Below are positions 1,632 to 15,651 of a stretch of DNA of 21,429 nucleotides, in pieces; within the stretch, counting starts at the first letter, position 1; each line of letters begins with the position of its first letter. Below the pieces are notes generated by a model. That model was given only the letters and a program-made list of their open reading frames with translations. It searched no databases and was not told the DNA's origin. A program made the position numbers and the translations under genes. Source of the stretch: a virus; IMG/VR virus record IMGVR_UViG_3300048033_000589, positions 1-21,429 of that record, one strand, 5' to 3'.

Positions 1632-1662
1632 TGTTGACGTGTAAACACGTTGATGCTACTGT
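1632..1662 (+). promoter_or_regulatory. Dyad element A with possible promoter, upstream of portal
   Basis: The 62-base gap between terminase and portal holds TGTTGACGTGTAAACA at 1632-1647, a copy of a 16-bp imperfect palindrome (TGTTNAC, two bases, GTNAACA) found at three other gene junctions in this window. Its left arm contains TTGACG at 1634-1639, close to a sigma70 -35. TACTGT lies 17 bp further on, at 1657-1662, and is only a weak -10 match. The repetition is seen directly. Whether it is a promoter, an operator or both is inference. Confidence 0.55.
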
Positions 1663-1691
1663 ACGCATGACGTCACAGGTGAGATTTTGAT

Positions 1692-3728
1692 ATGGCGCTA
1701 GGCCCAGCTCTAATTCCTGTTGCGCGTGCTTCTGATCTTGAGGCGCAAGCGCAGCGTGCTTCTGATGAGAAACAGAACACCCCTATGATTCAAGGGCTGT
1801 CTTCTCACGTTTATAAGCGATGGGAAGTAATGCGGGATCATCACCAGGACAGCTTAGAAGAGCGTCTTGCGCAGTGCGTTCGCGCTCGGAATATGGAGTA
1901 TGAACCTGCAAAACTTGCTGAAATACAGGAGCAAGGTGGCTCAGAAATCTTTATGGGTATTGTCAGCGCTAAGTGTAGGACTGCTACTGCTTGGCTGCGA
2001 GATACGCTTTTAGGGACTGGCACAGATAAACCTTGGTCTCTTAGTGCGACGCCTATTCCAGAGGTGCCGCCAGACATAGCTCAGGCGATGCAGAATATAA
2101 TGCAGCAGAACCTGATGCAATATTACGACGCTGGCGGCGAACCGCCAAACGAAGCTGAGCTTAAACAGCTTGCGTCGGGTATGAAGGATACGGCCATGCG
2201 GGCCATGAAGTTCGAAGCGGAGAAGCGCGTCGAGCGGATGGAAACCAAAATGGAAGATCAGATGATCGAGGGGGGCTTTACGAAAGCGCTGTTCGAGTTC
2301 ACAAACGATATAGCGACCTTTCCTTACGCGATCCTAAAAGGACCAATTCCCCGCAAACGTAAAGCAATGAAGTACGTTGAGGGCGGATTAGGCGTAGTCG
2401 AGGTACTGCGCGACGAGTGGGAGCGCGTTGACCCGTTTAAGTTTTACTGGATGCCATGGGGCGATGATATCCACTCTATGCCTATAGCAGAACTGCATCA
2501 CTTAACGCGAGACGACGTTGAGAACATGCTCGGCGTTGAGGGCTACGACGAAGACGCTGTGCGCTCAATACTTACCGATTTCGGTTCGGGCGGGTTTAGC
2601 TGGCTCGACCACAACGATGACCTCATGGAAGACGCCACAGGGCAAGACTTTGATGAGGCGAACACAGATTTAGTCGCAGCGTTACAGCTTTGGGACACAA
2701 TCCCCGGCGATGTTTTACTAGAATGGGGGCTTAGCGAGGAAGAGGTCGAAGACCCTCAAAAATCGTATCCGTGTGAAGTGTGGATGATTGACAACATTGT
2801 CGTTCGCGCGGTGCTTAACTATGATCCATTGGGGCGTAAGCCTTACTATATGTCTTCTTTTGAAAAGGTTCCGGGCCGTATCGACGGCAACGGGGTCGCC
2901 GATCTTTGTATGGACGCTCAAAATATGTGTAACGCCGCTGCTCGGGCGCTTGCAAATAATATGGGCATCTCCTCCGGTCCACAGGTCGGCGTTAATATCA
3001 GTCGACTTCCAGCGGGCGAAGACATCACTCAGATGTACCCGTGGAAAATTTGGCAGTTCAAACAGTCCGATTACGCAGACTCAACACCGCCTATGAGCTT
3101 TTTTCAGCCGAACTCTAACGCAGCTGAACTGATGGGCGTATTTGATCGCTTTATGGCTATCTCCGACGAGGTGTCAGGTATTCCGCGTTACATGACCGGC
3201 CAGCATGTTCCAGGCGCAGGGCGTACGTCCTCGGGGCTGTCTATGCTTATGTCAAACGCCGGTAAAAGCATAAAACAAGTTATTAGCAATATTGACCATG
3301 ACGTGATGCAGCCAATGCTGGAGCGCCAGTATCAAAGAAACTTAAGGTACTCAGATGACCCAGACCTTATCGGCGATGTCCAGATTGTGGCAACGGGCGC
3401 TATGTCGCTTGTCGTTAAAGAAGCTGAAGCTGTCCGTAAGACTGACTTCCTCCGTCTTATTCTGGAAAGTCCGGTTGCACAGCAGATTGTTGGCTTGCCA
3501 GGTACGGCTGAACTCCTCCGCGACCTCGCGGGCAATCTTAACACCAATGTTGACCGCCTTGTCCCTAGCCGAGAAGATGTTCAGAAGCAGCAAGAGTTAG
3601 CTCAGCAACAGCAAATGATGATGCAGCAAATGCAGGCTCAGGAGCAAGCAGCACAGCTGCAAGAAGACGGCACGCCAAAAGGTGGGCGACAAGACAATAC
3701 AATGAGTCCCCGTCCTAATGGGCAGTAA
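1692..3728 (+). CDS. Portal protein (head-tail connector)
   Basis: This 678-residue protein is of the size and type that form the dodecameric DNA gate at one capsid vertex, through which the terminase packs and the tail ejects the genome. The best sign is the conserved segment GRTSSGLSMLMSNAGKSIK (starting near residue 510), a form widespread in portals of podoviruses, preceded by a stretch ending SDEVSGIPRYMTGQ. The N-terminal half has long charged helices (about 130-200) and many acidic patches. The last 60 residues are rich in glutamine and methionine (about 620-655), a flexible or coiled-coil tail typical of portals. The ribosome site is a modest AGGTGAG before ATG 1692. It lies between terminase and scaffold, as expected. 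Confidence 0.9.
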   Translation: MALGPALIPVARASDLEAQAQRASDEKQNTPMIQGLSSHVYKRWEVMRDHHQDSLEERLAQCVRARNMEYEPAKLAEIQEQGGSEIFMGIVSAKCRTATAWLRDTLLGTGTDKPWSLSATPIPEVPPDIAQAMQNIMQQNLMQYYDAGGEPPNEAELKQLASGMKDTAMRAMKFEAEKRVERMETKMEDQMIEGGFTKALFEFTNDIATFPYAILKGPIPRKRKAMKYVEGGLGVVEVLRDEWERVDPFKFYWMPWGDDIHSMPIAELHHLTRDDVENMLGVEGYDEDAVRSILTDFGSGGFSWLDHNDDLMEDATGQDFDEANTDLVAALQLWDTIPGDVLLEWGLSEEEVEDPQKSYPCEVWMIDNIVVRAVLNYDPLGRKPYYMSSFEKVPGRIDGNGVADLCMDAQNMCNAAARALANNMGISSGPQVGVNISRLPAGEDITQMYPWKIWQFKQSDYADSTPPMSFFQPNSNAAELMGVFDRFMAISDEVSGIPRYMTGQHVPGAGRTSSGLSMLMSNAGKSIKQVISNIDHDVMQPMLERQYQRNLRYSDDPDLIGDVQIVATGAMSLVVKEAEAVRKTDFLRLILESPVAQQIVGLPGTAELLRDLAGNLNTNVDRLVPSREDVQKQQELAQQQQMMMQQMQAQEQAAQLQEDGTPKGGRQDNTMSPRPNGQ

Positions 3729-3738
3729 AAGCTACATG

Positions 3739-3769
3739 TGTTGACACGTTAACAGCTTTAGAGTAGATT
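3739..3769 (+). promoter_or_regulatory. Dyad element B with the best -35/-10 pair
   Basis: TGTTGACACGTTAACA (3739-3754) is the most symmetrical of the four dyad copies: TGTTGAC and GTTAACA around the centre AC. It includes a perfect sigma70 -35, TTGACA (3741-3746). After a 17-bp spacer comes TAGATT (3764-3769), a four-of-six match to TATAAT. It sits in the 47-base gap between the portal and the 77-residue gene. A transcript from here would cover scaffold and capsid. Confidence 0.6.
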
Positions 3770-3775
3770 TATGAC

Positions 3776-4009
3776 ATGATTGACTTGAATCTTTGTGATC
3801 AGCAGCACGTAAAAGCACTGTTGAGACTTAAAGAAACAGGTGAAACGTCGCTGTTAGGTCTTTTTAAGGCCGAAGCAGAGAAAGCCAAAGCTCGTCTAGT
3901 GAGCGCAACCGATATGGTTTCAGTCCACCGGTTGCAAGGACGTGCAGAAGCATTTGAAGACCTACTGGAGTCCGTTGAAGAAGCGGCGAAGGTAGTAAAC
4001 CGCTCGTAA
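3776..4009 (+). CDS. Small helical protein between portal and scaffold, function unknown
   Basis: This 77-residue acidic protein appears to be almost entirely alpha-helical: a short N-terminal part (MIDLNLCDQQHVKALLRL), then two long helices rich in Ala, Glu and Lys that could pair as a hairpin (FKAEAEKAKARLVSATDM and VHRLQGRAEAFEDLLESVEEA). Small helical proteins of this kind often lie between portal and scaffold in podovirus-like genomes. I know no proven role, but the position suggests a capsid-assembly or minor virion component. Its start lies directly downstream of dyad element B, and no strong ribosome-binding site is visible ahead of the ATG. No catalytic motif is seen. Confidence 0.8.
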   Translation: MIDLNLCDQQHVKALLRLKETGETSLLGLFKAEAEKAKARLVSATDMVSVHRLQGRAEAFEDLLESVEEAAKVVNRS

Positions 4010-4016
4010 GAGCACG

Positions 4017-4064
4017 ATGAAGCACACCATATACGGGAGCAGCCTACCTACGGGCGCTGTGTAA
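4017..4064 (+). other. Possible 15-codon mini-ORF in the 82-base gap before scaffold
   Basis: The gap 4010-4091 has no dyad element. It holds an ATG at 4017 opening a 15-residue frame (MKHTIYGSSLPTGAV) that stops at 4064, shortly before the scaffold ribosome site GAGGAGAA. The sequence AAGCAC near 4020 and GTGCTT near 4074 could also pair and bracket the mini-ORF. It may be a leader peptide, a relic or chance. Only conservation in relatives could decide. Confidence 0.2.
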
Positions 4065-4091
4065 CAGAGTTGGTGCTTTGAGGAGAACCAT

Positions 4092-5048
4092 ATGGCGTTG
4101 CCAAAGCAGGTACAGGCACAGATTGCCGAAATTGAAGCGTACGAAAAATCGTTAGAAGCCCAACACGAACCTCAACCCGAGGAGTTGGATACGGAAGCGG
4201 AAGTAGTAGCGACGATCGAAGCAGCACCCGAACCTGAAGAAGCGAAGCCAGCTGACACGTCACCGACGGACGTAGAGGAAGAGACTTTTAAGCAAAAGTA
4301 CAAAACCCTTACAGGTAAGTACGATGCTGAAGTTCCACGGTTGCACCAACAGGTGCGAGAGATGACCGAGGCAACAAAGCAGCTCCAAGAGGAGCTAAAA
4401 GCGCTTAAAGTCGAACCGACAAAGCCGAAGGAGAAAGTCAGTTTAGTGACCGACGCAGATCGAGCCGAATTTGGTGAAGAACTGCTGGACGTTCAGCGCC
4501 GAGTTGCGCAGGAAGTCTCTCAAGACTACGAGGGGCGACTGGAGCAGCAAGACGCGGTTATCAAGAAGTTGCAGGACGAACTTGCAAAGACGGGTAGCCA
4601 AGTTGGAGAAGTAGGATTTAGTCAGAGGCTCAACCAAGCCGTGCCTGATTTCCCGCAGATCGACAACGATGAGCGTTGGGTAGCGTGGTTAAATGAGCAT
4701 GATCCTATGCTTAGAGGCCCACGCAGAGTTCAAGCACAGCAGGCGTTTGATGCCGGTGACGTAGAAGCCATAGCCCACTATGTGAACATGTGGAAAGAAA
4801 CGTTAGCAGCACCGACCGAAGCTAAGCCTAACCAAGCCGAACTTGAGAAGCAGGTTGCTCCAAACCGTTCTGCTAATTCTGTGCGTACACAGAGTACAAC
4901 CCAGAACTCTAAAATTTATTCGCCTAAAGACGCGGATAGAGCTTGGAATAAGGTCCGTACACTGAATACGCGAGGGCAGTACGCGGAGGCGGAAAAACTT
5001 GAAGCTGACTTAACCGCTGCGTATATGGAAGGCCGCGTTAGAGCTTAG
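4092..5048 (+). CDS. Scaffold protein for capsid assembly
   Basis: This 318-residue, highly charged protein has no hydrophobic core sequence, as is typical of phage scaffolds, which line the procapsid interior and are lost or cleaved before DNA fills the head. The first 70 residues are strongly acidic and rich in Glu and Pro. Residues about 75-185 form a likely coiled coil (KYKTLTGKYDAEVPRLHQQV onward, then EGRLEQQDAVIKKLQDELAK). A middle part (VPDFPQIDNDERWVAWLNEH) is better ordered. The C-terminus is a basic helical segment (DADRAWNKVRTLNTRGQYAE) of the kind that binds coat protein. Position between portal and major capsid gene supports the role. The start follows a good GAGGAGAACC site. 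Dyad element C separates it from the capsid gene. Confidence 0.82.
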   Translation: MALPKQVQAQIAEIEAYEKSLEAQHEPQPEELDTEAEVVATIEAAPEPEEAKPADTSPTDVEEETFKQKYKTLTGKYDAEVPRLHQQVREMTEATKQLQEELKALKVEPTKPKEKVSLVTDADRAEFGEELLDVQRRVAQEVSQDYEGRLEQQDAVIKKLQDELAKTGSQVGEVGFSQRLNQAVPDFPQIDNDERWVAWLNEHDPMLRGPRRVQAQQAFDAGDVEAIAHYVNMWKETLAAPTEAKPNQAELEKQVAPNRSANSVRTQSTTQNSKIYSPKDADRAWNKVRTLNTRGQYAEAEKLEADLTAAYMEGRVRA

Positions 5049-5056
5049 GCATAACG

Positions 5057-5087
5057 TGTTAACATGTAAGCAGCTATTAGGTCGATA
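5057..5087 (+). promoter_or_regulatory. Dyad element C upstream of major capsid gene
   Basis: TGTTAACATGTAAGCA at 5057-5072 is a third copy of the 16-bp dyad, with one base off the symmetrical consensus (AGCA for AACA). Downstream bases resemble those after copy B: 10 of the next 15 match, including a GT-C/A-GAT group near 5081-5086. The -35-like hexamer is TTAACA and the 17-bp-spaced -10 (TCGATA) is poor, so sigma70 use is uncertain. It lies 38 bases before the capsid ATG. Confidence 0.5.
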
Positions 5088-5109
5088 ACCAACTTAATAG
5101 GAGGCCAAA

Positions 5110-6120
5110 ATGGCTGCTGTATTCCCCGTCGTCGGTTCCGGCGCATTCGACACAAACCCATCTTACTCAGGTGGATTCATCCCACAACTATGGTCGCAAA
5201 AATTGAACGCTAAGTTCTATGCGAACACAATGATGACTGAAATTTCCAATACTGATTGGGAAGGCGAGATCAAAAACCAAGGCGATACAATTCGTATCCG
5301 TACTGCACCATCAATCACAATCAACGATTATGCTGGCGCTGGTACTACACTGACTTCTGAAGTCCCTGCTCCAATCTACCAAGACATGCAGATCGACCAA
5401 GGTAAATACTTCAGTGTTCAAGTAAACGATGTACTCGCACACCAAGCGGACATGGACTTGATGAACATGTTCACTGATGATGCTGCTAAACAGCTGAAGA
5501 TCAACATTGAAAACGATACGTTCTTCAACTGGTTCGTAACCACAGGCGCACACGCTAAAAACAAAGGTGCAAATGCTGGTAACATCTCAAGCGCTTATAA
5601 CTTGGGTACTGACGTAGCCCCAATCGACCAAGCAACTCCTGCGAACATTTTGAACGCAATCTTGCAAATGTCTTCATCTCTCGATGAGCAAAACGTACCG
5701 GAAGATGGCCGCTGGCTTATCATTTCACCGCGTGATCGTCAGTTGTTGATGCAAACAGACATTGCTCAAGCCTACTTCACAGGCGATCAGTCAAGCACCA
5801 TCCGTACCGGCAAAATCGGTATGTTGGACCGCTTCACTGTGTACGTGTCCAACTTGTTGCCAAAAGGCCAAGCAGGCAAAGGTCTTGTTGCGGGTCTATC
5901 AGCCACAACATCAGGCGCTTCAGTGTCTAACGCTAAAGCACGTCGTATGATGGTAGCTGGTACAAGCACAGCTTGTTCGTTTGCTTCGCAAATCAGCAAA
6001 ACTGAGCCACTTCGCAACCAGACTGACTTCGGCGACATCGTTCGCGGTCTTGCAGTATATGGTCGCAAAGTTGTTAAGCCAGAAGCTCTCTGCACCGCGA
6101 TTGTTGGAGCAGCCAGCTAA
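5110..6120 (+). CDS. Major capsid protein
   Basis: This 336-residue protein is the expected shell subunit, directly after the scaffold. Its N-terminus (SYSGGFIPQLWSQKLNAKFY), followed by EGEIKNQGDTIRIRTAPSIT and DQGKYFSVQVNDV, matches a coat family common in podovirus-like marine phages. An HK97-type fold is assumed from the family, not shown here. The ribosome site is the strongest in the window (AGGAGG at 5099-5104, five bases before the ATG), as expected for the most abundant protein. Codon use looks more uniform, with many AAC, GGT and CGT codons. Its own dyad element lies upstream and a GC-rich hairpin lies downstream, so it may be produced from a defined transcript. No cleavage signal for a maturation protease is obvious. 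Confidence 0.9.
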   Translation: MAAVFPVVGSGAFDTNPSYSGGFIPQLWSQKLNAKFYANTMMTEISNTDWEGEIKNQGDTIRIRTAPSITINDYAGAGTTLTSEVPAPIYQDMQIDQGKYFSVQVNDVLAHQADMDLMNMFTDDAAKQLKINIENDTFFNWFVTTGAHAKNKGANAGNISSAYNLGTDVAPIDQATPANILNAILQMSSSLDEQNVPEDGRWLIISPRDRQLLMQTDIAQAYFTGDQSSTIRTGKIGMLDRFTVYVSNLLPKGQAGKGLVAGLSATTSGASVSNAKARRMMVAGTSTACSFASQISKTEPLRNQTDFGDIVRGLAVYGRKVVKPEALCTAIVGAAS

Positions 6121-6133
6121 AAGCTGACTTAAC

Positions 6134-6155
6134 GGGAGGGGCTAACGTCCCTCCC
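6134..6155 (+). terminator. GC-rich hairpin after the capsid gene, probable terminator
   Basis: GGGAGGG (6134-6140) and CCCTCCC (6149-6155) form a perfect 7-bp stem with an 8-base loop, 13 bases after the capsid stop codon. The following bases are CCTTACTTG, not a long T tract, so termination is likely partial. T7-like phages have a terminator in the equivalent place after the capsid gene. It could instead protect the capsid mRNA from 3' decay. Confidence 0.55.
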
Positions 6156-6178
6156 CCTTACTTGCGAAGGGGCAGATT

Positions 6179-6868
6179 ATGGCAACTGTAAAAGTTACCG
6201 ATATTATTAGAAACGTAGAACATGTTCTACAAGACACCAGCATTCGTTGGCCACGCACGGAACTCCAGAACTGGATGAACGAAGCGTATCTAGCGATTAT
6301 TCTTATGCGCCCTGACGCAAATGCTAAAACAGGCACATTCACTTGCACAGCAGGTTCTCGACAGCAGCTGACCTCTCAGTTCGCCTCTAGTTTGAAACTT
6401 TTAGATGTTACGCGCAACTTAGCATCGGCTTCGGACAAGCGAGCCGTACGGCTTGTAGCCCGGTCTGTATTGGACGATCAACGCCCTACATGGCACGGCG
6501 AAACTGGTACGGTAAACATACAACACTACATGTATGATCCGCGCCAACCCAAAGAATTTTTTGTGTACCCACCCGCTACAACAGCAGCAGAAATTGAAGT
6601 AATTTACGCTGACGCTGTTACCGGACACGCACTCAGCGAAAGCGCTTTGGACCCGACTGGTTCTAACGCGACTGTAATTTTGCTGGACGATATTTATAAA
6701 AGTCCAATTACCGACTGGGTGCTATATCGTGCGTATTCAAAAGACGCAGAGTACGGATCAAACGAACAAAGAGCCGTAGGAGCGTACAACGCTTTCAATA
6801 CCGCTCTTGGGGCTAAAACTCAGGTAGACGCAGCTGTGTCTCCTCAGCAAGCTAGTTCGGTGACATAA
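6179..6868 (+). CDS. Head-tail adaptor protein, DUF6682-like
   Basis: This 229-residue protein begins with a helical segment typical of phage adaptor proteins that sit under the portal: VTDIIRNVEHVLQDTSIRWP then ELQNWMNEAYLAIILMRPDA. The DT..RWP..EL..W.N.A pattern is the hallmark I associate with the DUF6682 adaptor family. A beta-rich middle follows (RQPKEFFVYPPATTAAEIEV), then a helical C-terminal part (SPITDWVLYRAYSKDAEYGS) that also recurs in these proteins. It should join portal to tail and help hold DNA in the filled head. It starts after the capsid hairpin with only a weak GGGGCAG ribosome site and is one base from the next gene. Confidence 0.8.
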   Translation: MATVKVTDIIRNVEHVLQDTSIRWPRTELQNWMNEAYLAIILMRPDANAKTGTFTCTAGSRQQLTSQFASSLKLLDVTRNLASASDKRAVRLVARSVLDDQRPTWHGETGTVNIQHYMYDPRQPKEFFVYPPATTAAEIEVIYADAVTGHALSESALDPTGSNATVILLDDIYKSPITDWVLYRAYSKDAEYGSNEQRAVGAYNAFNTALGAKTQVDAAVSPQQASSVT

Positions 6869-6869
6869 C

Positions 6870-7508
6870 ATGGCAAAAACGTGGGCGAGCTTTCTTCCGT
6901 ATGTGCAGCCACACGTTCCCGGCTGTCCACAGGTTGTAATTGACACACATCTGCAAGAAGCGGCGGCTGAGTTTATTGGCCGCAGTGAACTTTGGCGTTT
7001 TGACATTGAATCAGATTTTACGAGTAAAAATACATCTGACTATGAAATTGACGTTCCTAGCGGAGCGGTTTTAGAGAATGTTTTATCGTTATTTGTTGAC
7101 GGTTCAGCTGCAAAACGCGTTACCGACAGGCATTTTCAGTCCTCAAATACGACTGAAAATTCTGCGCCTTCCTCGTTTAGTATATACCAAGACAACCAAA
7201 TACGGTTTTTCCCAACGCCAGACCGAAAGTATACGTTCGAGGGTGTGGGAGTTTTAAAGCCGTCTTTAAGTGCTACAGGCGTAGAAGACTTTATATTCGA
7301 AACGCACGGGCGCTCTATCGCGTGCGGGGCCATTTGGCGACTAGCAATTATCCCGGGCAAAGAATGGTCGAACCCCGAGGTGGCGATGTACTATAAAACC
7401 GAGTTCTACAAGCACATGGACGCCGCTAAAGGGCGAGACACGCGGCGCGTTAATTTGCGCATTGCTCCTGTTGGCTTTGACCGAGCTACAGCTGGCGGAG
7501 GAAGATAA
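6870..7508 (+). CDS. Second head-tail adaptor / tail tube-like connector protein
   Basis: This 212-residue protein has the layout of tail-tubular A or second adaptor proteins in short-tailed phages. It has an N-terminal helical region (WASFLPYVQPHVPGCPQVVI, then LQEAAAEFIGRSELWRFDIE), a central beta-rich part (SIYQDNQIRFFPTPDRKYTF) and a final helical part (SNPEVAMYYKTEFYKHMDAA) ending in RRVNLRIAPVGFDR. The early helical segment recalls proteins that start with an array of helices contacting the portal. It follows the DUF6682-like adaptor by one base and overlaps the next gene by one base, so the block is probably translated as a unit. Exact orthology to T7 gp11 or P22 gp4 cannot be judged by eye. 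Confidence 0.7.
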   Translation: MAKTWASFLPYVQPHVPGCPQVVIDTHLQEAAAEFIGRSELWRFDIESDFTSKNTSDYEIDVPSGAVLENVLSLFVDGSAAKRVTDRHFQSSNTTENSAPSSFSIYQDNQIRFFPTPDRKYTFEGVGVLKPSLSATGVEDFIFETHGRSIACGAIWRLAIIPGKEWSNPEVAMYYKTEFYKHMDAAKGRDTRRVNLRIAPVGFDRATAGGGR

Positions 7509-7843: not shown

Positions 7844-9129
7844 AGCTAAAGTCCGCAACATTTGTAGCACAAACGAAAGCTGTTTTCACGCAGCTAAGTA
7901 GTGCTGCCAGCGTTACGACTTTAAATCGTATTCTTGCATCCGTGCAGGCAGGCAACTTTATACTTTTCGCTTCGTTGTTCGATACGTTCTATATCAAAGA
8001 CGGAGCCGGTGCTTCCGATGGTGCGGTTCTTGAGTTCTTCAAAACACTCACCGACGACGCTGCCGTTGCGGAAGAAGCGACTAATTCGTTTATGAAGTCG
8101 CTGTCGCACACTGCGACCTTTGATGATAGAATTGATTTCTTTGCTTTTGGCAAATCTTTTCAGAACACTTCCGCCGTAGCCGAGGCGTATGCGGCGCACA
8201 TACAAAAACCCTTCAGCGATGGATTTTCGGTTGCAGAAGACGCAGCGAGCTTGCACCCCAACAAGGGTCTATTTGAGGCTCCAGCCGCAGCCGATGCGAT
8301 AAACACGTTCGGCGTGGGTAAAGCCAACACAGATGTATTTACTGCGCTAGACGCCCATGCTTTTTCTTCGGCTAAACCATTAAACAATTCGTCATCCGCA
8401 GCAGACGCGACGTCGAAAGAGCCGGGTAAAGTTCTAAACGACATCGTTACTAAGTTTGACGATCAAACAATTCTGTTTACCATGAAAGCGCCTGACAACC
8501 CTGTTGGGGCTGTGGATGGGGTAAACACAAAAGGCATTGGTAAATCTGAGGAAGACACTGCGGTTTCTTTAGACCAAGCGACACGTAGTTTTAACAAAGA
8601 TGCCCAAGATATTTTTGCGGCGATTGACGAGATAAACTCGTTTTCCACGAGCAAACAGATCGTCGATTCCATTTTTGTTACTGACGATGTGGATGGAGCC
8701 GCGTCGATTTTAGACGACCAAGAAATGCAATTTGTCAAACTGCACACTGATGTGGTCGGTGTCGGCGATTCTATCCAAATTGGAATTGTGTTCACCCGTC
8801 AGTTTATCGACACGGGAGTTGCGCTAGACAGCGTTGCGTTCGCGATAGCGAAAGCTCTGTCCGATGGTTATACAATTTCTGACGTCGCAAATGTGCTGAC
8901 AGGTAAGCACGTTTCTGATACATTCGCGTTAAGCGAAACTCATACGAAAGCCGTAACTGCGGCCCGTACAGACAGCGCCCTTTTAGGAGACGCACACGCC
9001 TCAGCACTGTCAAAGGTGTTGTCTGATACCCCGCTAATAGCCGACGCGGGTTCACTAAGAAGTCAAGGTTACTGCGACTTCACTTACTTTGCGGAAGATT
9101 ATGTCGGTGCTTCCCGAACCTTTACTTAG
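7840..9129 (+). CDS. Repeat-built structural protein, 18-19-residue K..(L/F).D repeats
   Basis: This 429-residue, alanine- and aspartate-rich protein is unusual in composition and made largely of short repeats. From residue 68 to about 405, most segments begin with Lys and run 18-19 residues in the pattern K-x-(L/F)-x-D-x-x-x-(V/A)-x-(D/E)-x-(A/V). Examples are KTLTDDAAVAEEATNSFM, KPFSDGFSVAEDAASLHPN, KALSDGYTISDVANVLTG and KVLSDTPLIADAG. The N-terminal 67 residues differ and include a hydrophobic stretch (LASVQAGNFILFASLFDTFY). The last 25 residues (YCDFTYFAEDYVGASRTF) end in an aromatic cap. Similar repeats occur in other phage virion proteins, and a trimeric fibre or elongated stalk is the likely shape, though the fold is unproven. 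It sits among appendage genes and is translationally coupled to the BppU-like gene. Confidence 0.75.
   Translation: MKLKSATFVAQTKAVFTQLSSAASVTTLNRILASVQAGNFILFASLFDTFYIKDGAGASDGAVLEFFKTLTDDAAVAEEATNSFMKSLSHTATFDDRIDFFAFGKSFQNTSAVAEAYAAHIQKPFSDGFSVAEDAASLHPNKGLFEAPAAADAINTFGVGKANTDVFTALDAHAFSSAKPLNNSSSAADATSKEPGKVLNDIVTKFDDQTILFTMKAPDNPVGAVDGVNTKGIGKSEEDTAVSLDQATRSFNKDAQDIFAAIDEINSFSTSKQIVDSIFVTDDVDGAASILDDQEMQFVKLHTDVVGVGDSIQIGIVFTRQFIDTGVALDSVAFAIAKALSDGYTISDVANVLTGKHVSDTFALSETHTKAVTAARTDSALLGDAHASALSKVLSDTPLIADAGSLRSQGYCDFTYFAEDYVGASRTFT
8041..9054 (+). repeat. About 17 degenerate 54-57-bp coding repeats
   Basis: The repeats are visible at protein level as segments that mostly begin with Lys at an 18-19-residue spacing. 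They have diverged strongly at DNA level, so they are old. Three units are longer (about 28, 38 and 36 residues) and seem to have lost the leading Lys of an internal unit. Confidence 0.7.
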
Positions 9130-9138
9130 GAGATCGTT

Positions 9139-9617: not shown

Positions 9618-12600
9618 ATGTCTACGATCACTACACGCGCAGGAAAAGGTTCGCCCCTCACCAACACTGAGGTCGATACTAACTTTACGAACCTCAACAC
9701 CGATAAACTGGAAACCTCTGGCGGAACGCTGACAGGTAATTTGACGATCTCTTCCGGTGGAACACCGCAGTTGACCTTGTATGACAGCGGTAACGGCGGC
9801 GGTGGCGGAGCGACGCACCGTATCGACTTCGAAAACACCAGCGGCGTTTCTACGGCAATCTTGATCGACAGTAGTGATACCACTAACAGTGACTTAGTTA
9901 TTACGAATAACCACGCAAGCGGGTATGTCGACGACGATGGTATATCAGACGCTACTTCCGATATTGTTCTGTACCCACTAACGCATGTCCGCATAGCCAG
10001 TGGCGATCTGCAAATGGGCAGCACGACTGTTATCGACAGCTCGAGAAACGCCACGTTCCAGACGCTAAAGATCGAAAGCAACGTTGTCAGTACAACTTCA
10101 GATATTGCCTTGACGGCGAATGCAGCAATTAATGCCGTAAACAGCATGTCTTTTGGAATGACGGAGGATACCAGTGGCTATTTCCGGTGGATGTTTGGCA
10201 ACGACTCCAACATTGGTGGCACCGCTGGCGGCGTTGAGAAGATGAAGCTCAACCACAACGGCAACCTAACTTTGGCAGGCACTGTTGACGGTGTTGACAT
10301 CGCCGCATTTAAAACTGCTTACGATAGTCATATGCATCCGTTTACAGATATTACTTCAACAGGTTTACTTTCTAATAATGATTTAGACGATTACACCTCT
10401 AGGGAGTTATTGCATTGGGGCAGTTCCAACCCAGCTAATAGCCCTGCCGCATATGGCGCTATGTTTGTGATCCCAGATGGTAGTCAAGCCCAACAACTAG
10501 TACAGACATACGGCGGCGCTGCTAACAAAGTTTCGCTTTATGGTCGGCGTAGAACTAACAGCACATGGGATACAAGTTGGACGCAATATTTCAGCGATCA
10601 CTACCACCCCAACGCAGACAAATGGACTACAGCGCGTACACTTACTTTAACGGGCGATGTAACAGGTTCTGTCACTTGGGACGGTTCTGCCCCCGTCAGT
10701 ATGGATACTACAGTTGTATCTGCACCATCTCTACTCGTTAGCCATGTTCCGACTAGCGCCCAAAGCGGGATTATATACCCTGCGATTATTGAGGCAAAAG
10801 ACAGCGGTAACGTCAACGACTACGTGCTTGACGATGGCGTCGGGATTCAATTTAAAATTGGCACAAACCCCGATGGAAGCCCCTCAGAATACTCTCAGGT
10901 CGGGGCTAGTATTGCTGCTATTAGAGAATCTACTACCGATATCTCCAGCAATACGGGCCTTGGGCTTTTTATTTCTCAGAACAACGAAACACTGGATGAA
11001 GCGCTTCGAATTGACAACGTGGGCAACGCTGATTTCAAACTCGGCACCCTCAAAATGGGTGGAACGGCTCTCGTCACTCAAGATCGAGATGTGACGCCTC
11101 GTAAAGTTAACATTGTTTCGAGTGAAAACGACGCGCTCAAATTAAATATCACTGACGATGTTGCTAACCGCTCCAGAAACGCCATGCACATTGATTTTAA
11201 CTTATCAGGTGCAGATGCTACTACGGCGGATCGAACCAAAGTCGCTCTTAGGATTGACCTAGATTCAACTGCTACAGGCGGGGATACAAACCACGAGCAT
11301 CGTGTGTACGGTATAATAAATGATGTTCGTGCCAGCGGCGATAGCGATATTATATACGGTCAGTATAATTATGTAGAGCCGCACCTTTCTTCGGGGACTA
11401 CAAGCGTTGTTTACGGGGACTATTCCATCGTAACAGTAGACGAAAGCGGCTCGGGGCGAACGACTACTGCAACCGGAACATACGGATATGTAAACATTAC
11501 ATCTTCGGGTACTGGGGGCGAAACTGCCAATGCTTACGGCGGCTACTTTAGAGCGCTCTGCGGCGGCACGCAGGAAAAAAACATTACAAACATGCACGGC
11601 ATTATGGCCGAGGTGGAGATTGATAACAGCGCTAATGGTGTTACGGTAGATAACGCATATGTTGTTCGGTCGTATTATGATAACGATGTTGTTTCGACTG
11701 GCGACGTTGTTGTTACGAACACTTATTTGTACCACGGCGCTTACGCCGGTACTTTACCTAACAACCCTTTCGGCGTGTACATTTCATCCGACGTGCCAAA
11801 CTATTTTAGGGGCAATGTTGACGTTCGCGGCTCCAACGGTTTGGAGGTTAAAAACGCGTCTGACACGCACCTCAGGGTGCAGCTGCAGACCGAGCTTGCC
11901 AGTGATTATGGTATTCTGCGCTTTTACGGCAAAGATAGCGTGCAGGTAGGCTTTTTAATCGGTTACGGTAGTTCGCACGGTTCGACGCCCGACGAGCTTG
12001 TCGTAAAAGCCACTGCCGCCGACGGGAAGTTCGCGGTCTATACTAACGGGCAGCGGCGCTTGCGCGTCGAAAACACCCTAACGACTGTTACAACACCGAT
12101 GGTGGTAAACCCCGTTACCGATGTGAGCTTCACAAGCACGGGTCACGCTTTCCAGATCGGAGCCGTGGGCGGCGCGAATATGCGTTTCGATACTAACGAA
12201 ATTATGTGTATAAATGCTGACGCAACTAGTCACGACTTACGGTTACAACACTCAGGCGGCAGGGTACTCGTTAACAACGACCTCATCCTTGAGGGTCATA
12301 GGATTTCCACAAACGGTGTTAACCTGGACTTTTCTGTTGATGCTGATGCGAGCAGCTCGAACCAAAGCATACGTTTCTTCGAAGGTGGCGTGTTGCGTAT
12401 GCAGCTTGAGGACAACGATTTATATGTCCAAGATAACATCAACGCCGGATATATGGTCGCCACTTCTGGGAACGCAACACAATATGATACAGGCGCTGCT
12501 ACTGTTAATTGTCGAACCGCAGCCCTAGTTGACGGATCGACCGGCGCGTACAGAACGTACATACAGTCCTATAATTCTACAGACCCAGACCTCGGCATGT

Positions 12601-13517
12601 TTGTAGCCCACAGCAAAGATGTGATGGCGGACACAGGAGTGACATCTGAGAGTCATCAAAGTACCGCTCATGTCTTAGACAACGGCGGACGCCATTTTCT
12701 ATGGAATAGTGTCTACGCTGGGCGCTCACGAGCAGGGACTACCTCAGGTACAAACGCTTATCGAGCGGGGGATAATGTTGTCGTTGCGTACTCTGGTACA
12801 GGTAATGCTCACGGGGCGACCGCTTCGGCGGGTTCGACAGCGATTTATGGCCGTGAAACAGCAAACGGTGATGACGTTTTTCTAGTTGCCACTGGCGGGC
12901 AGCATCGTATTGAGTTTGACGCAGATGGTAACGGACGTTTTGACGGCGGTGCTGATATTTCTGCGGCCGACTATGCGGAATACTTTGAGTGGGTCGATGG
13001 CAACCCTGACAACGAAGATCGTCGTGGGCGTTCTGTAGTTTTAACCACCGCTGGTAAAATGCGTATCGCAACATCAGAGGATGATACCGCAGACTTCTTA
13101 GGGATTGTTTCTGTAGAAGCCGCTGTTGTAGGTGACAGTGCTTGGGCTGCATGGACAGGTAAGTGTGAGCGTGATCGCTTTGGTCAAAAAGTATATGAAG
13201 ACTACGAACTTCTGTGCTGGGGGCCGTATGACGAAGACACTAAGTCCTACAAAACCCAAACCACCCGGCAGGCTATGATTGATGACGGGCGCGAGGCCGA
13301 CATACCCGAAGATGCTATAACCGTAGTTAAGCAACGGCAAAAACTGGCGGCTGATTACGATCCAGGCCGTGAGTACATTGCCCGAAAAGACAGACCGGAG
13401 TGGCAAGCAATCGGGCTTATGGGGAAACTCCCGCTTCTCAAAGGACAGCCAACTGCACCGCAGTGGCGCAAACTATTTGATCTCAATGATGAGGTCGAAA
13501 TGTGGCTAGTTCGCTAG
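9618..13517 (+). CDS. Large tail fibre with pyocin-knob-like and Peptidase_G2-like domains
   Basis: This 1299-residue protein is the main candidate for host contact. The N-terminus (LTNTEVDTNFTNLNTDKLET, then SGGTLTGNLTISSGG) is a standard fibre start. Around residues 254-330 is a likely pyocin-knob domain (DLDDYTSRELL, YGAMFVIPDGSQAQQLVQTY, TNSTWDTSWTQYF), flanked by HxH motifs HMHPF and DHYHPN that in other trimeric fibres bind metal. Residues about 560-730 carry repeated YG-Y units, probably beta-helical. From about residue 1100 comes a Peptidase_G2-like C-terminal domain with ADYAEYFEWVDGNPDNEDR (from 1117) and FLGIVSVEAAVVGDSAW. In phi29-type appendages this domain aids trimer folding and then cuts itself off. 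No enzymatic glycan-degrading site was recognised. The ribosome site is AGAGGGG. Confidence 0.88.
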   Translation: MSTITTRAGKGSPLTNTEVDTNFTNLNTDKLETSGGTLTGNLTISSGGTPQLTLYDSGNGGGGGATHRIDFENTSGVSTAILIDSSDTTNSDLVITNNHASGYVDDDGISDATSDIVLYPLTHVRIASGDLQMGSTTVIDSSRNATFQTLKIESNVVSTTSDIALTANAAINAVNSMSFGMTEDTSGYFRWMFGNDSNIGGTAGGVEKMKLNHNGNLTLAGTVDGVDIAAFKTAYDSHMHPFTDITSTGLLSNNDLDDYTSRELLHWGSSNPANSPAAYGAMFVIPDGSQAQQLVQTYGGAANKVSLYGRRRTNSTWDTSWTQYFSDHYHPNADKWTTARTLTLTGDVTGSVTWDGSAPVSMDTTVVSAPSLLVSHVPTSAQSGIIYPAIIEAKDSGNVNDYVLDDGVGIQFKIGTNPDGSPSEYSQVGASIAAIRESTTDISSNTGLGLFISQNNETLDEALRIDNVGNADFKLGTLKMGGTALVTQDRDVTPRKVNIVSSENDALKLNITDDVANRSRNAMHIDFNLSGADATTADRTKVALRIDLDSTATGGDTNHEHRVYGIINDVRASGDSDIIYGQYNYVEPHLSSGTTSVVYGDYSIVTVDESGSGRTTTATGTYGYVNITSSGTGGETANAYGGYFRALCGGTQEKNITNMHGIMAEVEIDNSANGVTVDNAYVVRSYYDNDVVSTGDVVVTNTYLYHGAYAGTLPNNPFGVYISSDVPNYFRGNVDVRGSNGLEVKNASDTHLRVQLQTELASDYGILRFYGKDSVQVGFLIGYGSSHGSTPDELVVKATAADGKFAVYTNGQRRLRVENTLTTVTTPMVVNPVTDVSFTSTGHAFQIGAVGGANMRFDTNEIMCINADATSHDLRLQHSGGRVLVNNDLILEGHRISTNGVNLDFSVDADASSSNQSIRFFEGGVLRMQLEDNDLYVQDNINAGYMVATSGNATQYDTGAATVNCRTAALVDGSTGAYRTYIQSYNSTDPDLGMFVAHSKDVMADTGVTSESHQSTAHVLDNGGRHFLWNSVYAGRSRAGTTSGTNAYRAGDNVVVAYSGTGNAHGATASAGSTAIYGRETANGDDVFLVATGGQHRIEFDADGNGRFDGGADISAADYAEYFEWVDGNPDNEDRRGRSVVLTTAGKMRIATSEDDTADFLGIVSVEAAVVGDSAWAAWTGKCERDRFGQKVYEDYELLCWGPYDEDTKSYKTQTTRQAMIDDGREADIPEDAITVVKQRQKLAADYDPGREYIARKDRPEWQAIGLMGKLPLLKGQPTAPQWRKLFDLNDEVEMWLVR

Positions 13518-13545
13518 TCAAAACTCAAACCAAAGGAGACTTTCG

Positions 13546-13770
13546 ATGGCAAAAGATGAAAAGAAAACCATTACGGTCAACGATACAGAATACAATATTG
13601 ACGACTTAACAGAACTGCAAATGGTAATGGTAAATCACATTACCGACCTAGACCGAAAAATGAGTAGTGTTCGGTTTAACCTCGACCAACTAAGCGTCGG
13701 TCGGGAAGCATTTGTTAACAAGTTAACAAGTTCGCTTGAAACACCAGCGCAGGAAATGGCGGCAGAATAA
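13546..13770 (+). CDS. DUF6447-like small protein
   Basis: This 74-residue acidic protein has a short beta opening (KTITVNDTEYNIDDLTELQM) followed by a long helix (NHITDLDRKMSSVRFNLDQL). The pattern 'iti.g.eY..ddLs......v..i...d.ei..l...l..l..ar..' fits the DUF6447 family, small proteins common in marine phages, often near fibre genes. No function is known to me. The helix may form a coiled coil with a virion or membrane partner. A strong AAAGGAGAC ribosome site precedes the ATG, and the stop overlaps the next start by one base (TAATG), so it is co-translated with the small membrane protein that follows. Confidence 0.8.
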   Translation: MAKDEKKTITVNDTEYNIDDLTELQMVMVNHITDLDRKMSSVRFNLDQLSVGREAFVNKLTSSLETPAQEMAAE

Positions 13771-14003
13771 TGGAAATGAACGCACTTTGGGACGTCGGTT
13801 TGACGGCTGGTTTAGGCTTCATCGTATGGTGGGCTAAAAGTCAGCACGATGAACTAAGGCGCGTTCAAATCTTACTCAACCGAACCAGAGAGGAACTCGC
13901 CAAGGAATATTCGACCAAAGTCGAGAGCAACGCATCCATAGACCGACTTATAGTTCGTTTAGATGCTCTCGACGCAAAAATGGACAGGATGCTCGAACGA
14001 TAA
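13770..14003 (+). CDS. Small N-terminally anchored membrane protein with coiled-coil tail
   Basis: This 77-residue protein has one hydrophobic segment near the N-terminus (residues 5-23, LWDVGLTAGLGFIVWWAKS) followed by a charged, wholly helical part, including a heptad-like C-terminus (LIVRLDALDAKMDRMLER). The design resembles haemolysin XhlA-like and other accessory lysis proteins, where the helix lies in the cytoplasm and the anchor in the inner membrane, but the orientation cannot be set from sequence alone. It is translationally coupled to the DUF6447-like gene and followed after nine bases by another membrane protein. A lysis-related or membrane-remodelling role is inference. Confidence 0.72.
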   Translation: MEMNALWDVGLTAGLGFIVWWAKSQHDELRRVQILLNRTREELAKEYSTKVESNASIDRLIVRLDALDAKMDRMLER

Positions 14004-14012
14004 GGGAATACT

Positions 14013-14480
14013 ATGATTGAAGTCTTAGCCCTCGCGGGCGCGGTAACTAAAATTGCAGGCGGTATAAGTAGCGCTATTCAAGCGGGCAAAGATATGAACT
14101 CTGTCCTGCCGCATTTTGGAAAACTGGCTAAGTTAGAAGCAGACATCAATCTCGCGGAGCAGGGCAAGCACAAAGGCCCACTCGGCAGGCTTACTTCATC
14201 AGAGGAAGAAGGCTTCGCTATTGCCCAAGCAAAAATGGCGCACAAGGAAGCAATGGAAACGCTTCGCAGCGCGTGCAGATTGTACGGACCGCCTGGAATG
14301 TGGGACTTGGTCGTACGCGAGCAGGCTGAAGCACGCAAACGCCAGAAGGACGCCCTAGAAGCGCAAGCTAAGGCCAGAGATCGCTTGTTTTACGGACTAT
14401 CCATAACAATAGCCGTGGTGGTCTTTTTAGGCGGAACGGCAGTTATGATCTGGGGTGCAAATGAGATTGCGAATGGGTGA
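14013..14480 (+). CDS. Helical protein with C-terminal membrane anchor, function unknown
   Basis: This 155-residue protein starts with a weakly hydrophobic Gly/Ala-rich helix (MIEVLALAGAVTKIAGGISS), continues with charged helices and ends in a clear transmembrane segment (residues 125-148, LFYGLSITIAVVVFLGGTAV). The segment just before it (REQAEARKRQKDALEAQAKA) is a long charged helix, probably a coiled coil. I recognise this general layout from hypothetical proteins of marine phages, with no known role. It could be a lysis accessory protein, or the N-terminal helix could insert as well, making a hairpin. Its stop codon overlaps the GTG start of the next gene by four bases (GTGA). The start follows AAGGGAA. 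Confidence 0.72.
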   Translation: MIEVLALAGAVTKIAGGISSAIQAGKDMNSVLPHFGKLAKLEADINLAEQGKHKGPLGRLTSSEEEGFAIAQAKMAHKEAMETLRSACRLYGPPGMWDLVVREQAEARKRQKDALEAQAKARDRLFYGLSITIAVVVFLGGTAVMIWGANEIANG

Positions 14481-14650
14481 GACTTGTACAGGTAAGACGC
14501 GAACGCTGGGTGGTCTACGACGAGAACGACAAAGTCGTAATCATAACGCACCACAGAAGGATCGCATCAGATTATATGAGGAGTATGCTAAATGGCAGAC
14601 AAACCAATAAGGAAGACGACAGGCAAGGGCGGAAACTACCGCAAGACTAA
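14477..14650 (+). CDS. Overlooked 57-aa protein with GTG start
   Basis: A GTG at 14477 forms a GTGA overlap with the stop of the previous gene and opens a 57-codon frame ending at TAA 14648-14650. The first two thirds read as a proper small beta/alpha domain: RLVQVRRERWVVYDENDKV, then VIITHHRRIASDYMRSML. Strand, acidic turn, strand and helix with alternating hydrophobic residues suggest real coding. The basic, polar tail runs 59 bases into the next gene. A competing frame from ATG 14461 (starting MRLRMGETCTG) lacks such a pattern. The gene fills the otherwise unexplained gap before 14592. The function is unknown. It is short and has a non-ATG start, which makes it easy to miss. Confidence 0.65.
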   Translation: MRLVQVRRERWVVYDENDKVVIITHHRRIASDYMRSMLNGRQTNKEDDRQGRKLPQD

Positions 14651-14876
14651 GTCTGGCGCTGGCATGACAGCCAAGGGAGTTGCTGCGCACCGACGTGCTA
14701 ACCCCGGTTCTAAACTAAAAACTGCCGTAACCGGCAAAGTCAAAAAGGGCAGCAAGGACGCCAAGCGACGTAAGTCGTTCTGCGCACGTTCGGCTGGTCA
14801 GATGAAGAAGTTTCCTAAAGCTGCGAAAGACCCGAACTCTCGTCTGCGTCAAGCTAGAAAAAGGTGGAAGTGCTAA
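14592..14876 (+). CDS. Very basic DUF6321-like protein
   Basis: This 94-residue protein has about 31 Lys/Arg and only three acidic residues (net charge near +28). The pattern GVAAHRRANPGSKLKTAVTG, then AKRRKSFCARSAGQMKKF and a C-terminal DPNSRLRQARKRWKC matches what I know as DUF6321, a small domain of marine phages and some large viruses with no proven function. The RRKSFCARS and R.W.C parts each hold one conserved Cys (two in all), so a metal site shared between subunits is possible. The charge suggests nucleic-acid binding, but that is inference. The start follows GAGGAG eight bases upstream. The stop shares an A with the next start (TAATG). First of four consecutive tiny basic proteins. 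Confidence 0.8.
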   Translation: MADKPIRKTTGKGGNYRKTKSGAGMTAKGVAAHRRANPGSKLKTAVTGKVKKGSKDAKRRKSFCARSAGQMKKFPKAAKDPNSRLRQARKRWKC

Positions 14877-15070
14877 TGGCAAATGCAAAACCAAACAATC
14901 CAGCTTTGTGGTCGCGGGCTAAGGCAGCGGCAAAGAAAAAGTTTAAAGTTTATCCGAGTGCATATGCTAACGCGTGGGCAAGTAAGTGGTATAAATCTAA
15001 AGGCGGCGGCTGGAGCGGCGGCAATAATAAGGTAGCTAAACGTGGCAAAAGCAAAAGCAAAAAAGCCTAG
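14876..15070 (+). CDS. Very basic 64-aa protein with YPSAYANAW motif
   Basis: The start chosen is ATG 14876, which overlaps the previous stop (TAATG) and has AAGGTGG at 14861-14867. An in-frame ATG at 14864 would add MEVL only. The 64-residue product has 17 Lys/Arg and no acidic residue. Its centre, KKFKVYPSAYANAWASKWYK, followed by a GGGWSGG turn, is a motif I have seen in small proteins of phages and large viruses, whose role is unknown to me. The C-terminal KRGKSKSKKA is pure basic tail and is encoded in the same DNA as the start of the next protein. DNA or RNA binding is a guess from charge. Confidence 0.75.
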   Translation: MANAKPNNPALWSRAKAAAKKKFKVYPSAYANAWASKWYKSKGGGWSGGNNKVAKRGKSKSKKA

Positions 15071-15293
15071 TGCCAAGGGTGGCTTGGGTAAATGGTTCGG
15101 GGAAGAGTGGACTGACGTCAAGACAGGTAAAGCCTGTGGACGCAAATCGGCTAAAGGTAAATCCAAGAGGCCGTATCCCGCTTGTCGCCCTAAAAAAGTT
15201 GCGTCGAAGATTTCTAAATCGGAGGCAGCAAAGAAGACCGGTTCTAAGCGAGTGAAGTGGTCCACAACAGCCAGCGGAAAGAAAAGGAAATAA
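15042..15293 (+). CDS. Very basic 83-aa protein with GKWFGEEW and YPACRP motifs
   Basis: The gene starts with GTG 15042, after AAGGTAG, inside the end of the previous gene (29-base overlap). The 83-residue product has about 28 Lys/Arg and four acidic residues. The motif run GGLGKWFGEEWTDVKTGKACG then RPYPACRPKKVASK is distinctive. It resembles a family of tiny Lys-rich proteins with a W-F-x-E-x-W block and paired Cys found in marine phages and large viruses, but I do not trust a family number. The two Cys (ACG, PAC) could bind metal. Tail: WSTTASGKKRK. Role unknown. It is the third in the basic-protein run and ends two bases before the next ATG. Confidence 0.75.
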   Translation: MAKAKAKKPSAKGGLGKWFGEEWTDVKTGKACGRKSAKGKSKRPYPACRPKKVASKISKSEAAKKTGSKRVKWSTTASGKKRK

Positions 15294-15294
15294 C

Positions 15295-15414
15295 ATGGCC
15301 TATGGAAAAACAATGAAGAAGTCCGGTAGAAAAATGCCGTTTAAAAACTGTGCGTCCTGCAAATCAAAAGCCGCCTGCAAGAAAATGGGCCGCTGTATGA
15401 AAAAGAAGAAGTGA
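15295..15414 (+). CDS. Overlooked 39-aa Lys- and Cys-rich protein
   Basis: ATG 15295 opens a 39-codon frame ending TGA 15412-15414, exactly filling the 121-base gap between its neighbours, with one base on each side. The product has 15 Lys/Arg, no acidic residue and four Cys spaced C-x2-C-x5-C-x5-C (core CASCKSKAACKKMGRC), which could form a small zinc-binding or disulfide knot. GAAAAGGAAATAAC upstream is an acceptable ribosome site. The exact fit to the gap, the fourth place in a run of basic proteins and the patterned Cys make it likely real. The function is unknown. Confidence 0.7.
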   Translation: MAYGKTMKKSGRKMPFKNCASCKSKAACKKMGRCMKKKK

Positions 15415-15415
15415 C

Positions 15416-15631
15416 ATGGCGCACACCGTTATTGATGATTGGAAGATTATTCCACGACTGATGATGCTTGCGGTGACGGTGCTTACCTATCAGGCTGTGC
15501 ATTGGTTCATGGGTCTTGACGATCCTTCGATTGCTCAGTCTGGCCTTGTCAGCGTATGTATGGGCGCTCTTACAGGGTGTTTTGGCATCTGGATGGGCAA
15601 GGAATCAACTGCGAGTGGAAAGTCCGTATAA
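15416..15631 (+). CDS. Two-transmembrane small membrane protein, holin-like
   Basis: This 71-residue protein has two hydrophobic segments: residues 15-34 (LMMLAVTVLTYQAVHWFMGL) and 42-61 (SGLVSVCMGALTGCFGIWMG), separated by a short acidic turn (DDPSIAQ) and ended by a polar tail. Small two-TM proteins of this kind are usually listed as holins or membrane proteins of unknown role in phages. Here another, better holin candidate follows, so this could be its antagonist, a pinholin or an independent inner-membrane protein. It starts one base after the 39-aa gene. Dyad element D follows at once, so it probably ends a transcription unit that starts far upstream. Confidence 0.68.
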   Translation: MAHTVIDDWKIIPRLMMLAVTVLTYQAVHWFMGLDDPSIAQSGLVSVCMGALTGCFGIWMGKESTASGKSV

Positions 15632-15635
15632 TATG

Positions 15636-15651
15636 TGTTAACGTGTAAACA
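15636..15651 (+). promoter_or_regulatory. Dyad element D upstream of lysis genes
   Basis: TGTTAACGTGTAAACA at 15636-15651 is the fourth copy of the 16-bp dyad (TGTTAAC, GT, GTAAACA). It lies in the only gap of the lysis block, between the two-TM gene and the 3TM holin. No -10 hexamer lies 17 bp downstream, where the ribosome site AAAGGAG is instead. A perfect TATAAT overlaps the preceding stop (15627-15632) but has no matching -35. This may be an operator rather than a -35 element. Confidence 0.55.

Follow-up and report, generated by a model that had tools for sequence, protein, structure and literature searches.

Repeated Dyads in the Window

The DNA analysed here, called the window throughout, is a stretch of 21,429 nucleotides from a virus (IMG/VR record IMGVR_UViG_3300048033_000589, positions 1 to 21,429). 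It codes for a portal protein, a major capsid protein and a terminase large subunit (backed by a match to phrog_2), and it carries several copies of a near-palindromic dyad, TGTTNACNNGTNAACA. In the reading we favour, at a probability of about 0.70, the dyads serve as operators for a lysogeny (immunity) repressor encoded by a clade of tailed phages, most of which have an integrase.

A reading made from the sequence alone (the sequence-only reading) had described four 16-bp copies, A to D, in gaps ahead of the portal gene, a gene for a 77-residue (77-aa) protein, the capsid gene and a "holin" gene. All four are present, each 15 to 44 nt ahead of the start of an open reading frame (ORF); A, B and D are exact and C has one mismatch. 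That reading overlooked another exact copy at 13713 and two weaker ones at 8894 and 14965. Two gaps that it reported as free of the dyad (4010–4091 and 6121–6178) indeed hold no matrix site, and the left arms of A and B do double as a TTGAC −35 element followed after 17 bp by a −10-like hexamer (TACTGT and TAGATT). Its view that C and D match promoters poorly holds for C, which shows no recurring promoter pattern and resembles a stoperator (see below); D has TATAAT just 5′ (15627–15632) and adjoins GAAAGGAG, which looks like a ribosome-binding site. The portal and capsid labels were borne out by SU10_portal and by annotated relatives, respectively. The 127-aa gene after dyad D, labelled holin, matches phrog_2524, a family of unknown function. 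Allowing up to three mismatches to the 16-mer, the window alone contains 21 matches against a shuffled mean of 10.0 (standard deviation 2.8, largest 16).

An alignment of 48 gene-proximal sites from ten contigs showed that the symmetry extends beyond the 16-mer: an A stands three positions before it in 46/48 sites and a T three positions after it in 39/48. We therefore counted the unit as a 22-bp palindrome, A-NN-TGTTNACNNGTNAACA-NN-T, larger than the dyad first described. A matrix trained on these 48 sites found, in the same ten phage contigs (G000–G009; 297,712 bp, with 20,000 of the 21,002 bases of G007 read), 107 sites of at least 11 bits and none in the reversed sequence; at 8 bits or more the counts were 122 and 4. 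The density is about one dyad per 2.8 kb, some of them intragenic. Across fifteen contigs, 166 sites reached 12 bits against 2 in the control, both in G010, and each contig carried 5 to 20. The copies are not spread at random inside genes, the pattern that the sequence-only reading had named as speaking against a regulon: 79 of 154 site centres, about half, are non-coding (7.5 expected), and 89 of 154 lie no more than 100 nt ahead of the start of an ORF (18.9 expected). These coding counts are approximate, as genes were called by a greedy longest-ORF script and not by a trained caller.

An RNA hairpin or terminator was ruled out because the two arms vary independently across 146 distinct sites. 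At ten of eleven pairs the number of sites with complementary arms differs by at most 7 from that expected of independent arms (largest excess 52 vs 45.2); at the eleventh it falls far short (28 vs 48.9). An Rfam scan of the window gave no match.

Distribution among Relatives

A search with the capsid protein returned 80 loci, 76 of which remained after omission of four with a truncated capsid start (L035, L054, L060, L071). A match with at most two mismatches lies in the 110 nt upstream of the capsid gene in 62 of the 76 and is absent from 14, one of which offers only 39 nt. In larger records of 57.6, 59.1 and 53.7 kb, and more sparsely in one of 55.3 kb, dyads stand at both early and late genes, so that they are not confined to the late operon. 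The early genes include those for a family A DNA polymerase, an SNF2 helicase, a DUF927 primase, a PD-(D/E)XK nuclease, a phrog_1297 ATPase (which we take to be moxR) with a DUF2201 partner, and a 67-aa AlpA-like protein. That many relatives carry dyads at the starts of the same genes gives good support to the earlier suggestion of a dimeric regulator with a regulon.

By capsid, the nearest named phage is Rhizobium phage RHph_TM3_14A (43%), from which the dyad is absent (2 matches at 2 mismatches). A search of bacterial and archaeal species genomes for prophages gave three distant matches with 31–32% identity.

Placement Relative to Promoters

Where dyads overlap sigma-70-like promoters, we defined the register as the position of the −10 element relative to the dyad start and counted distinct upstream regions, related loci included. 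The −10 lies at +25 in 31/43 dyad-bearing upstreams of the portal gene (60 upstreams in all) and in 45/60 of the 77-aa gene (78 in all), and in both cases the dyad covers the −35. At terS the −10 lies at +11/+12 in 12/20 (31 in all) with the dyad over the spacer and −10; moxR gives +10/+11 in 9/11 (16 in all), with spacers of 16–18. A third register occurs at alpA, where the −10 is at −5 in 45/51 (56 in all) and the dyad covers the −10 or the start. Upstream of the capsid gene a dyad of at least 12 bits is found in 60/92 distinct regions with no consistent promoter, and the same is true of the primase (37/45) and tail142 (7/8) genes. The fixed distance between element and promoter that is expected of a phage sigma or polymerase promoter is thus not seen. 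Because an activator or sigma element is expected in one register and an operator need not be, the three registers argue for an operator.

The alpA promoter (TTGAC-17-TAnnnT) is kept in 5/5 upstreams that lack the dyad vs 44/51 with it, at a shuffled rate of 0.006. At alpA at least, this predicted promoter is independent of the dyad. Evidence from other genes is weaker. Dyad-less portal upstreams have a promoter in 8/17 cases, a set that includes L052, where the end of the contig truncates the dyad, together with L031, L057, L158 and L160, which look mis-anchored. For the 77-aa gene the figure is 7/18, with scores of 7–12 bits that may reflect decayed dyads. Counts for terS (9/20 with dyad, 8/11 without) were not used, since the presumed start cut the dyad in several rows of the comparison.

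A Candidate Repressor and the Integrases

We compared the early-strand proteins of 16 records, which cover different genome parts, for candidate readers. Among those with no BLAST match in the dyad-less contig G016, a 57-aa protein and a family designated b each reach 10 records, and a phrog_1448-like family reaches 8. Protein b has about 190 residues, is helical and belongs to no known family. Thirty-five rows span the interval from polA to the PD-(D/E)XK gene; b is present in 26, each with at least 4 dyads. Of the nine rows without b, five (G016, L120, L203, L204 and RHph_TM3_14A) have no dyad and four keep some, among them G002 with 6 in 55 kb. A profile search for b gave 73 loci, 68 of them with new identifiers, and all 68 carry at least 2 dyads. 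Together they hold 398 dyads in 687,480 bp vs 1 in the control. As a test of the matrix this is a looser one, and some of the loci belong to contigs already used (L211 in G001, L217 in G003). In a six-frame profile search b was detected in 101 sequences, each with 2 or more dyads, and not in the nine rows lacking b.

The same association appears site by site. At syntenic positions, sites of at least 12 bits are present in 34/35 cases in contigs with b (G001 8/8, G010 8/8, G012 7/8, G003 7/7, G013 4/4), and in contigs without b in 4/8 for G002 (a fifth at 11.5 bits), 3/8 for G011 and 0/7 for G016. Contigs with b keep the site in 84/84 alpA and 63/66 primase upstreams. The best helicase tree (19 rows) places G002 and the group of G011 with (G016, L203) apart from each other inside the clade with b, a placement that fits two losses of b. 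A dyad of 12–17 bits lies between polA and b in 7 of 14 contigs (G010, L110, L121, L122, L126, L132, L137), the other 7 having a weaker one or none. This arrangement is compatible with autoregulation of b through a weaker operator.

A confident AlphaFold2 model of b is all-helical (predicted local distance difference test score, pLDDT, 91.4; predicted template modelling score, pTM, 0.75). Invariant residues include R95, N98, G99, R100, Q103, R106, R107 and R109, all on one long helix (85–121), and the conserved basic stretch RRxNGRxxQxxRRxR on this helix may contact DNA. Fold searches of PDB and BFVD at E 0.001 gave no match, and the best Z in VIA was 5.7 over 81 residues (root-mean-square deviation 4.6).

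Between the tail and primase genes, 12 of 14 dyad-bearing contigs examined carry a tyrosine integrase, of several types: G001, G012 and G014 share one type, and the others are in G010, L107, L119, L110, L118, L132, L121, L122 and L130. PF00589 scores above its cut-off in L107, L110, L132 and G010; the G001 integrase falls just below it (24.1 vs 27.1) and is above the cut-off for DUF6538. No integrase was seen in that interval in G011 and G002, which have dyads, nor was one seen in the dyad-less G016 and L203. As dissimilar integrase types accompany a single dyad, the integrase is unlikely to be the reader.

Mechanism and Alternatives

What we observed directly is the motif, its distribution and registers, its co-occurrence with b, and the loss of some or all dyads in relatives that lack b; these observations suggest that a protein binds the dyad and represses transcription. 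In the mechanism we propose, the 22-bp palindrome would be occupied by a repressor dimer, which at promoters would cover the −35, the −10 or the start and block RNA polymerase. At promoterless sites between or inside genes, the bound repressor may act as a roadblock, like the stoperators of mycobacteriophages. Silencing of both early and late transcription would then give a quiet prophage and immunity.

Several points weigh against this reading. Seventy-five of the 154 site centres fall inside predicted genes. G011, L115 (the same contig as G011) and L116 lack b and keep 9–11 dyads, or 2.5–3.9 per 10 kb, which is inside the range of rows with b (1.7–8.7 per 10 kb). The 35 rows include overlapping loci and amount to 19 contigs with b and 7 without. 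Well-supported branches of the helicase tree force only two changes, a count that includes the outgroup, and shuffled labels were as clustered in 26 of 500 trials. Loss of b and loss of the integrase coincide and are confounded, and the integrases of L122 and L130 were assigned by resemblance only. Protein b has no recognisable DNA-binding domain, with only weak rows from Pfam and PHROG and no meaningful match by structure or sequence. Finally, the early region lies outside the window, and G009, a near relative of the window, stops short of the b locus, so that b and an integrase are attributed to the phage of the window from its clade. After rechecking the dyad density of the G011-type contigs we lowered the overall probability from 0.72 to 0.70. 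We also lowered slightly the standing of b, because these contigs keep an ordinary density without it. If the dyads are repressor operators, b is the leading candidate for their reader, at a little under even odds. It is less likely than not that b represents a new class of sequence-specific DNA-binding master repressor, all-helical and with no recognised helix-turn-helix, that reads a distributed palindrome. On that view sets of sites and repressor would have been swapped across the wider group, with TGTTNACNNGTNAACA in the phages studied here, AGTATCNNNGATACT in G016, TAATCCCRYGGGATTA in L195 and GTTACCTNNNNAGGTAAC in RHph_TM3_14A.

The sequence-only reading had listed an activator, a repressor and a polymerase-factor site side by side. 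An activator or phage sigma (polymerase-factor) site that switches on late genes would explain why most dyads at the portal (31/43) and 77-aa (45/60) genes coincide with a −35 followed by a 17-bp spacer, but such a site is hard to reconcile with three registers relative to the −10, with sites at early operons and alpA, with promoterless sites and with the alpA promoters that persist without the dyad (5/5). We regard it as quite unlikely, and favour the repressor. We give no more credence to the proposal that the AlpA-like protein reads the dyads. This 67-aa helix-turn-helix protein scores above the cut-off for PF05930 and has the dyad in its own promoter (51/56 distinct alpA upstreams), yet almost the same helix residues occur in the dyad-less L120 (= G016) and L124, and the helix-turn-helix is strongly different in L126, L112 and L122, which have the same dyad. 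The phrog_1448-like protein adjoining terS was rejected as reader: it occurs in 31 records but is missing from the dyad-bearing G011 and L166, and it is present in L158, L160 and L162 with only 0–1 dyads.

A host regulator could also read the dyads, so that the phage follows host physiology; CtrA sites in some alphaproteobacterial phages, as described in an excerpt from PMC9437464, provide a precedent. The CtrA site TTAA-N7-TTAA is, however, not enriched (0–3 per contig vs 0.0–3.9 expected, 16 contigs) and differs from the dyad, which reads TTNA-N4-TNAA; the spacings of LexA and parS do not fit, and dyad presence tracks the phage gene b while some sister phages have other palindromes. We consider a host regulator unlikely. 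LexA boxes read GTTC-N7-GTTC (alpha) and CTGT-N8-ACAG (gamma); the dyad consensus contains neither, and a LexA regulon was rejected. The 16 contigs hold 0–4 alpha and 0–1 gamma boxes each, counts that come without an expectation. If the dyads served partition or genome organisation, in the manner of parS, Noc or KorB sites, with a protein of the ParB type as reader, a spacing of about 2.8 kb with some intragenic copies would be suitable, and a 16-bp palindrome with TGTT/AACA ends resembles parS, which we counted for this explanation. The parS core was nevertheless matched in 0/16 contigs, no ParB match was found among 26 early or nearby proteins scanned, and the dyads are strongly placed at promoters and gene starts, which makes partition sites very improbable.

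Other Palindromes and Known Distributed Operators

Some dyad-less relatives carry palindrome families of their own. As palindromes survive reversal, plain reversal is unfit as a control in such a search and Markov shuffles served as the null. G016 has seven members of AGTATCNNNGATACT (null maximum 3), L195 six of TAATCCCRYGGGATTA (null maximum 2) and RHph_TM3_14A 17 perfect-arm members of GTTACCTNNNNAGGTAAC (null maximum 4). The whole RHph_TM3_14A record (L101 + L102) contains 44 copies of GTTACCTNNNNAGGTAAC at up to 3 mismatches vs 3 reversed, and a start codon lies 1–5 nt from the end of several; their right arm may serve in addition as a ribosome-binding site. Palindromes in L203 were not significant (3 vs null maximum 3), and those in L162, L191 and L186 were not beyond chance or were judged without shuffles. 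In L200 palindromes were noticed by eye. CRP-3, HMO-2011 and CRP-212 (first 50 kb each) and RHph_N3_19 (48.7 kb) gave no perfect-arm group above eight Markov shuffles, a weak negative since the method also misses the dyad in G001 and G012. Different palindromes in sister phages would be expected of immunity groups that exchange regulators and sites as sets.

Phage D29 lost its repressor, and the dyads that persist in contigs without b recall D29 with its well-conserved stoperators. The Cluster A repressor has reportedly been characterised (PMC9283540); the reader of the dyads described here is a candidate. Excerpts from PMC6550527 and PMC5712189 describe the stoperators of mycobacteriophage L5 and Cluster A as many short conserved sites across the genome. 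L5 has 24; the majority are intergenic, and a minority coincide with promoters. The consensus differs between related phages, and the sites are conserved in the lytic D29, which is regarded as the descendant of a temperate phage (PMC5712189). Our dyads are likewise numerous, mainly intergenic (about half) and placed in part at promoters and in part away from them. Unlike the 13-bp L5 sites, which are asymmetric and oriented with transcription, they are 22-bp palindromes.

A second parallel is SPBRE of Bacillus phage SPbeta, according to an excerpt from PMC10516654 a repeated intergenic element that was first found in silico, as were our dyads, and later proved to be the site of the master repressor MrpR, which has an unexpected fold. 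SPBRE spans 15 bp and marks the promoters of ten named genes, and MrpR resembles tyrosine recombinases (PMC10516654); the model of b is all-helical, with no fold match found. CtrA sites are also two-part and intergenic, and are read by a host protein and strongly clustered in some phages (excerpt from PMC9437464); they differ in their TTAA-N7-TTAA motif. Motifs repeated between ORFs of Nostoc cyanophages, for which a stoperator role is suggested in the portion of PMC4916379 cited here, are asymmetric with an 11-bp conserved core, and that portion links no repressor gene to them. The main text of PMC9038755 reports integrases in HMO-2011-type phages and does not mention a palindrome, repressor or promoter. 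The part of the literature covered on stoperator-like palindromes in proteobacterial, marine and Rhizobium phages, and on RHph_TM3_14A, contains no description of these sites.

As far as the cited excerpts go, distributed operators are best known in actinobacteriophages and SPbeta (PMC6550527, PMC5712189, PMC10516654). Palindromic distributed operators in an uncultured clade, tied to b and mostly to integrases, would offer a handle on the lysogeny choice, and dyad density may serve as a sequence marker that helps in distinguishing temperate relatives in metagenomes from virulent ones. Should b be the repressor, it would represent a new kind of DNA-binding protein.

Features of the Window and Neighbouring Genes

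The window contains seven sites of at least 8 bits (Table 1). The intragenic dyad at 8891 has an equivalent at −245 to −250 in 22/70 rows, overlapping loci counted; conserved coding may partly account for it. The dyad at 13710 lies inside the 3′ end of a 74-aa ORF, 41 nt before a 77-aa ORF at 13770, and 7/13 distinct upstreams of this latter gene, the window included, have a dyad.

Table 1. Dyads (22-bp units, scored in bits with the 22-bp matrix), putative promoters and genes of the window
Feature	Position	Strand	Remarks
Dyad A	1629–1650	.	30.0 bits; 22 bp; 16-mer at 1632, exact to TGTTNACNNGTNAACA; 16-mer ends 44 nt before portal gene
Putative sigma-70-like portal promoter	1634–1662	+	TTGACG (left arm of dyad A as −35), 17 bp, TACTGT
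Portal protein gene, 678 aa	1692–3728	+	Pfam SU10_portal, 51.1 bits (cut-off 30)
Dyad B	3736–3757	.	30.0 bits; 16-mer at 3739, exact; 21 nt before 77-aa gene
Putative promoter of 77-aa gene	3741–3769	+	TTGACA (left arm of dyad B as −35), 17 bp, TAGATT
Dyad C	5054–5075	.	26.3 bits; 16-mer TGTTAACATGTAAGCA at 5057, one mismatch; 37 nt before capsid gene
Major capsid gene, 336 aa	5110–6120	+	tblastn matches to genes annotated as major capsid/coat, with 43% identity to Rhizobium phage RHph_TM3_14A
Intragenic dyad in 429-aa gene	8891–8912	.	21.8 bits; starts 248 nt before next gene
Dyad overlooked by the sequence-only reading	13710–13731	.	24.4 bits; exact 16-mer at 13713–13728
Weak intragenic dyad	14962–14983	.	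15.3 bits; 16-mer at 14965; 58 nt before predicted ORF start at 15042
Dyad D	15633–15654	.	28.2 bits; 16-mer at 15636, exact; between 71-aa and 127-aa genes

The AlpA-like protein (L106:8387–8587 and relatives) occurs in 37 rows, and L135 seems to span the locus with no match. Its recognition helix varies (L112, L122, L126) while the promoter and dyad are unchanged. Between the early operon and the gene adjoining terS, we noticed by eye a control region with many short repeats of the TAGACA/AAGACA type (G001 ~47400–47730, G009 ~8600–8860), perhaps a replication origin. The adjoining gene is on the opposite strand (G001 47735–48232, G016 20026–20511, G011 36846–37529, L166 431–1075) and codes for dissimilar proteins in different phages, phrog_1448-like in many. 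In L166 an HNH-homing-like gene, recognised by eye at 1717–2433, immediately precedes terS and has a dyad at its start (1715). A variable slot near polA (G002 14814–15444, G010 33611–34688, G016 13064–13744, L132 1238–1570) appeared on inspection to hold different small helix-turn-helix-like proteins, some with a lone sigma-70 region-4-like domain. In the window itself, positions 14592–15293 encode, as judged by eye, a run of small lysine-rich proteins, and the gap at 15294–15415 contains another short lysine-rich frame.

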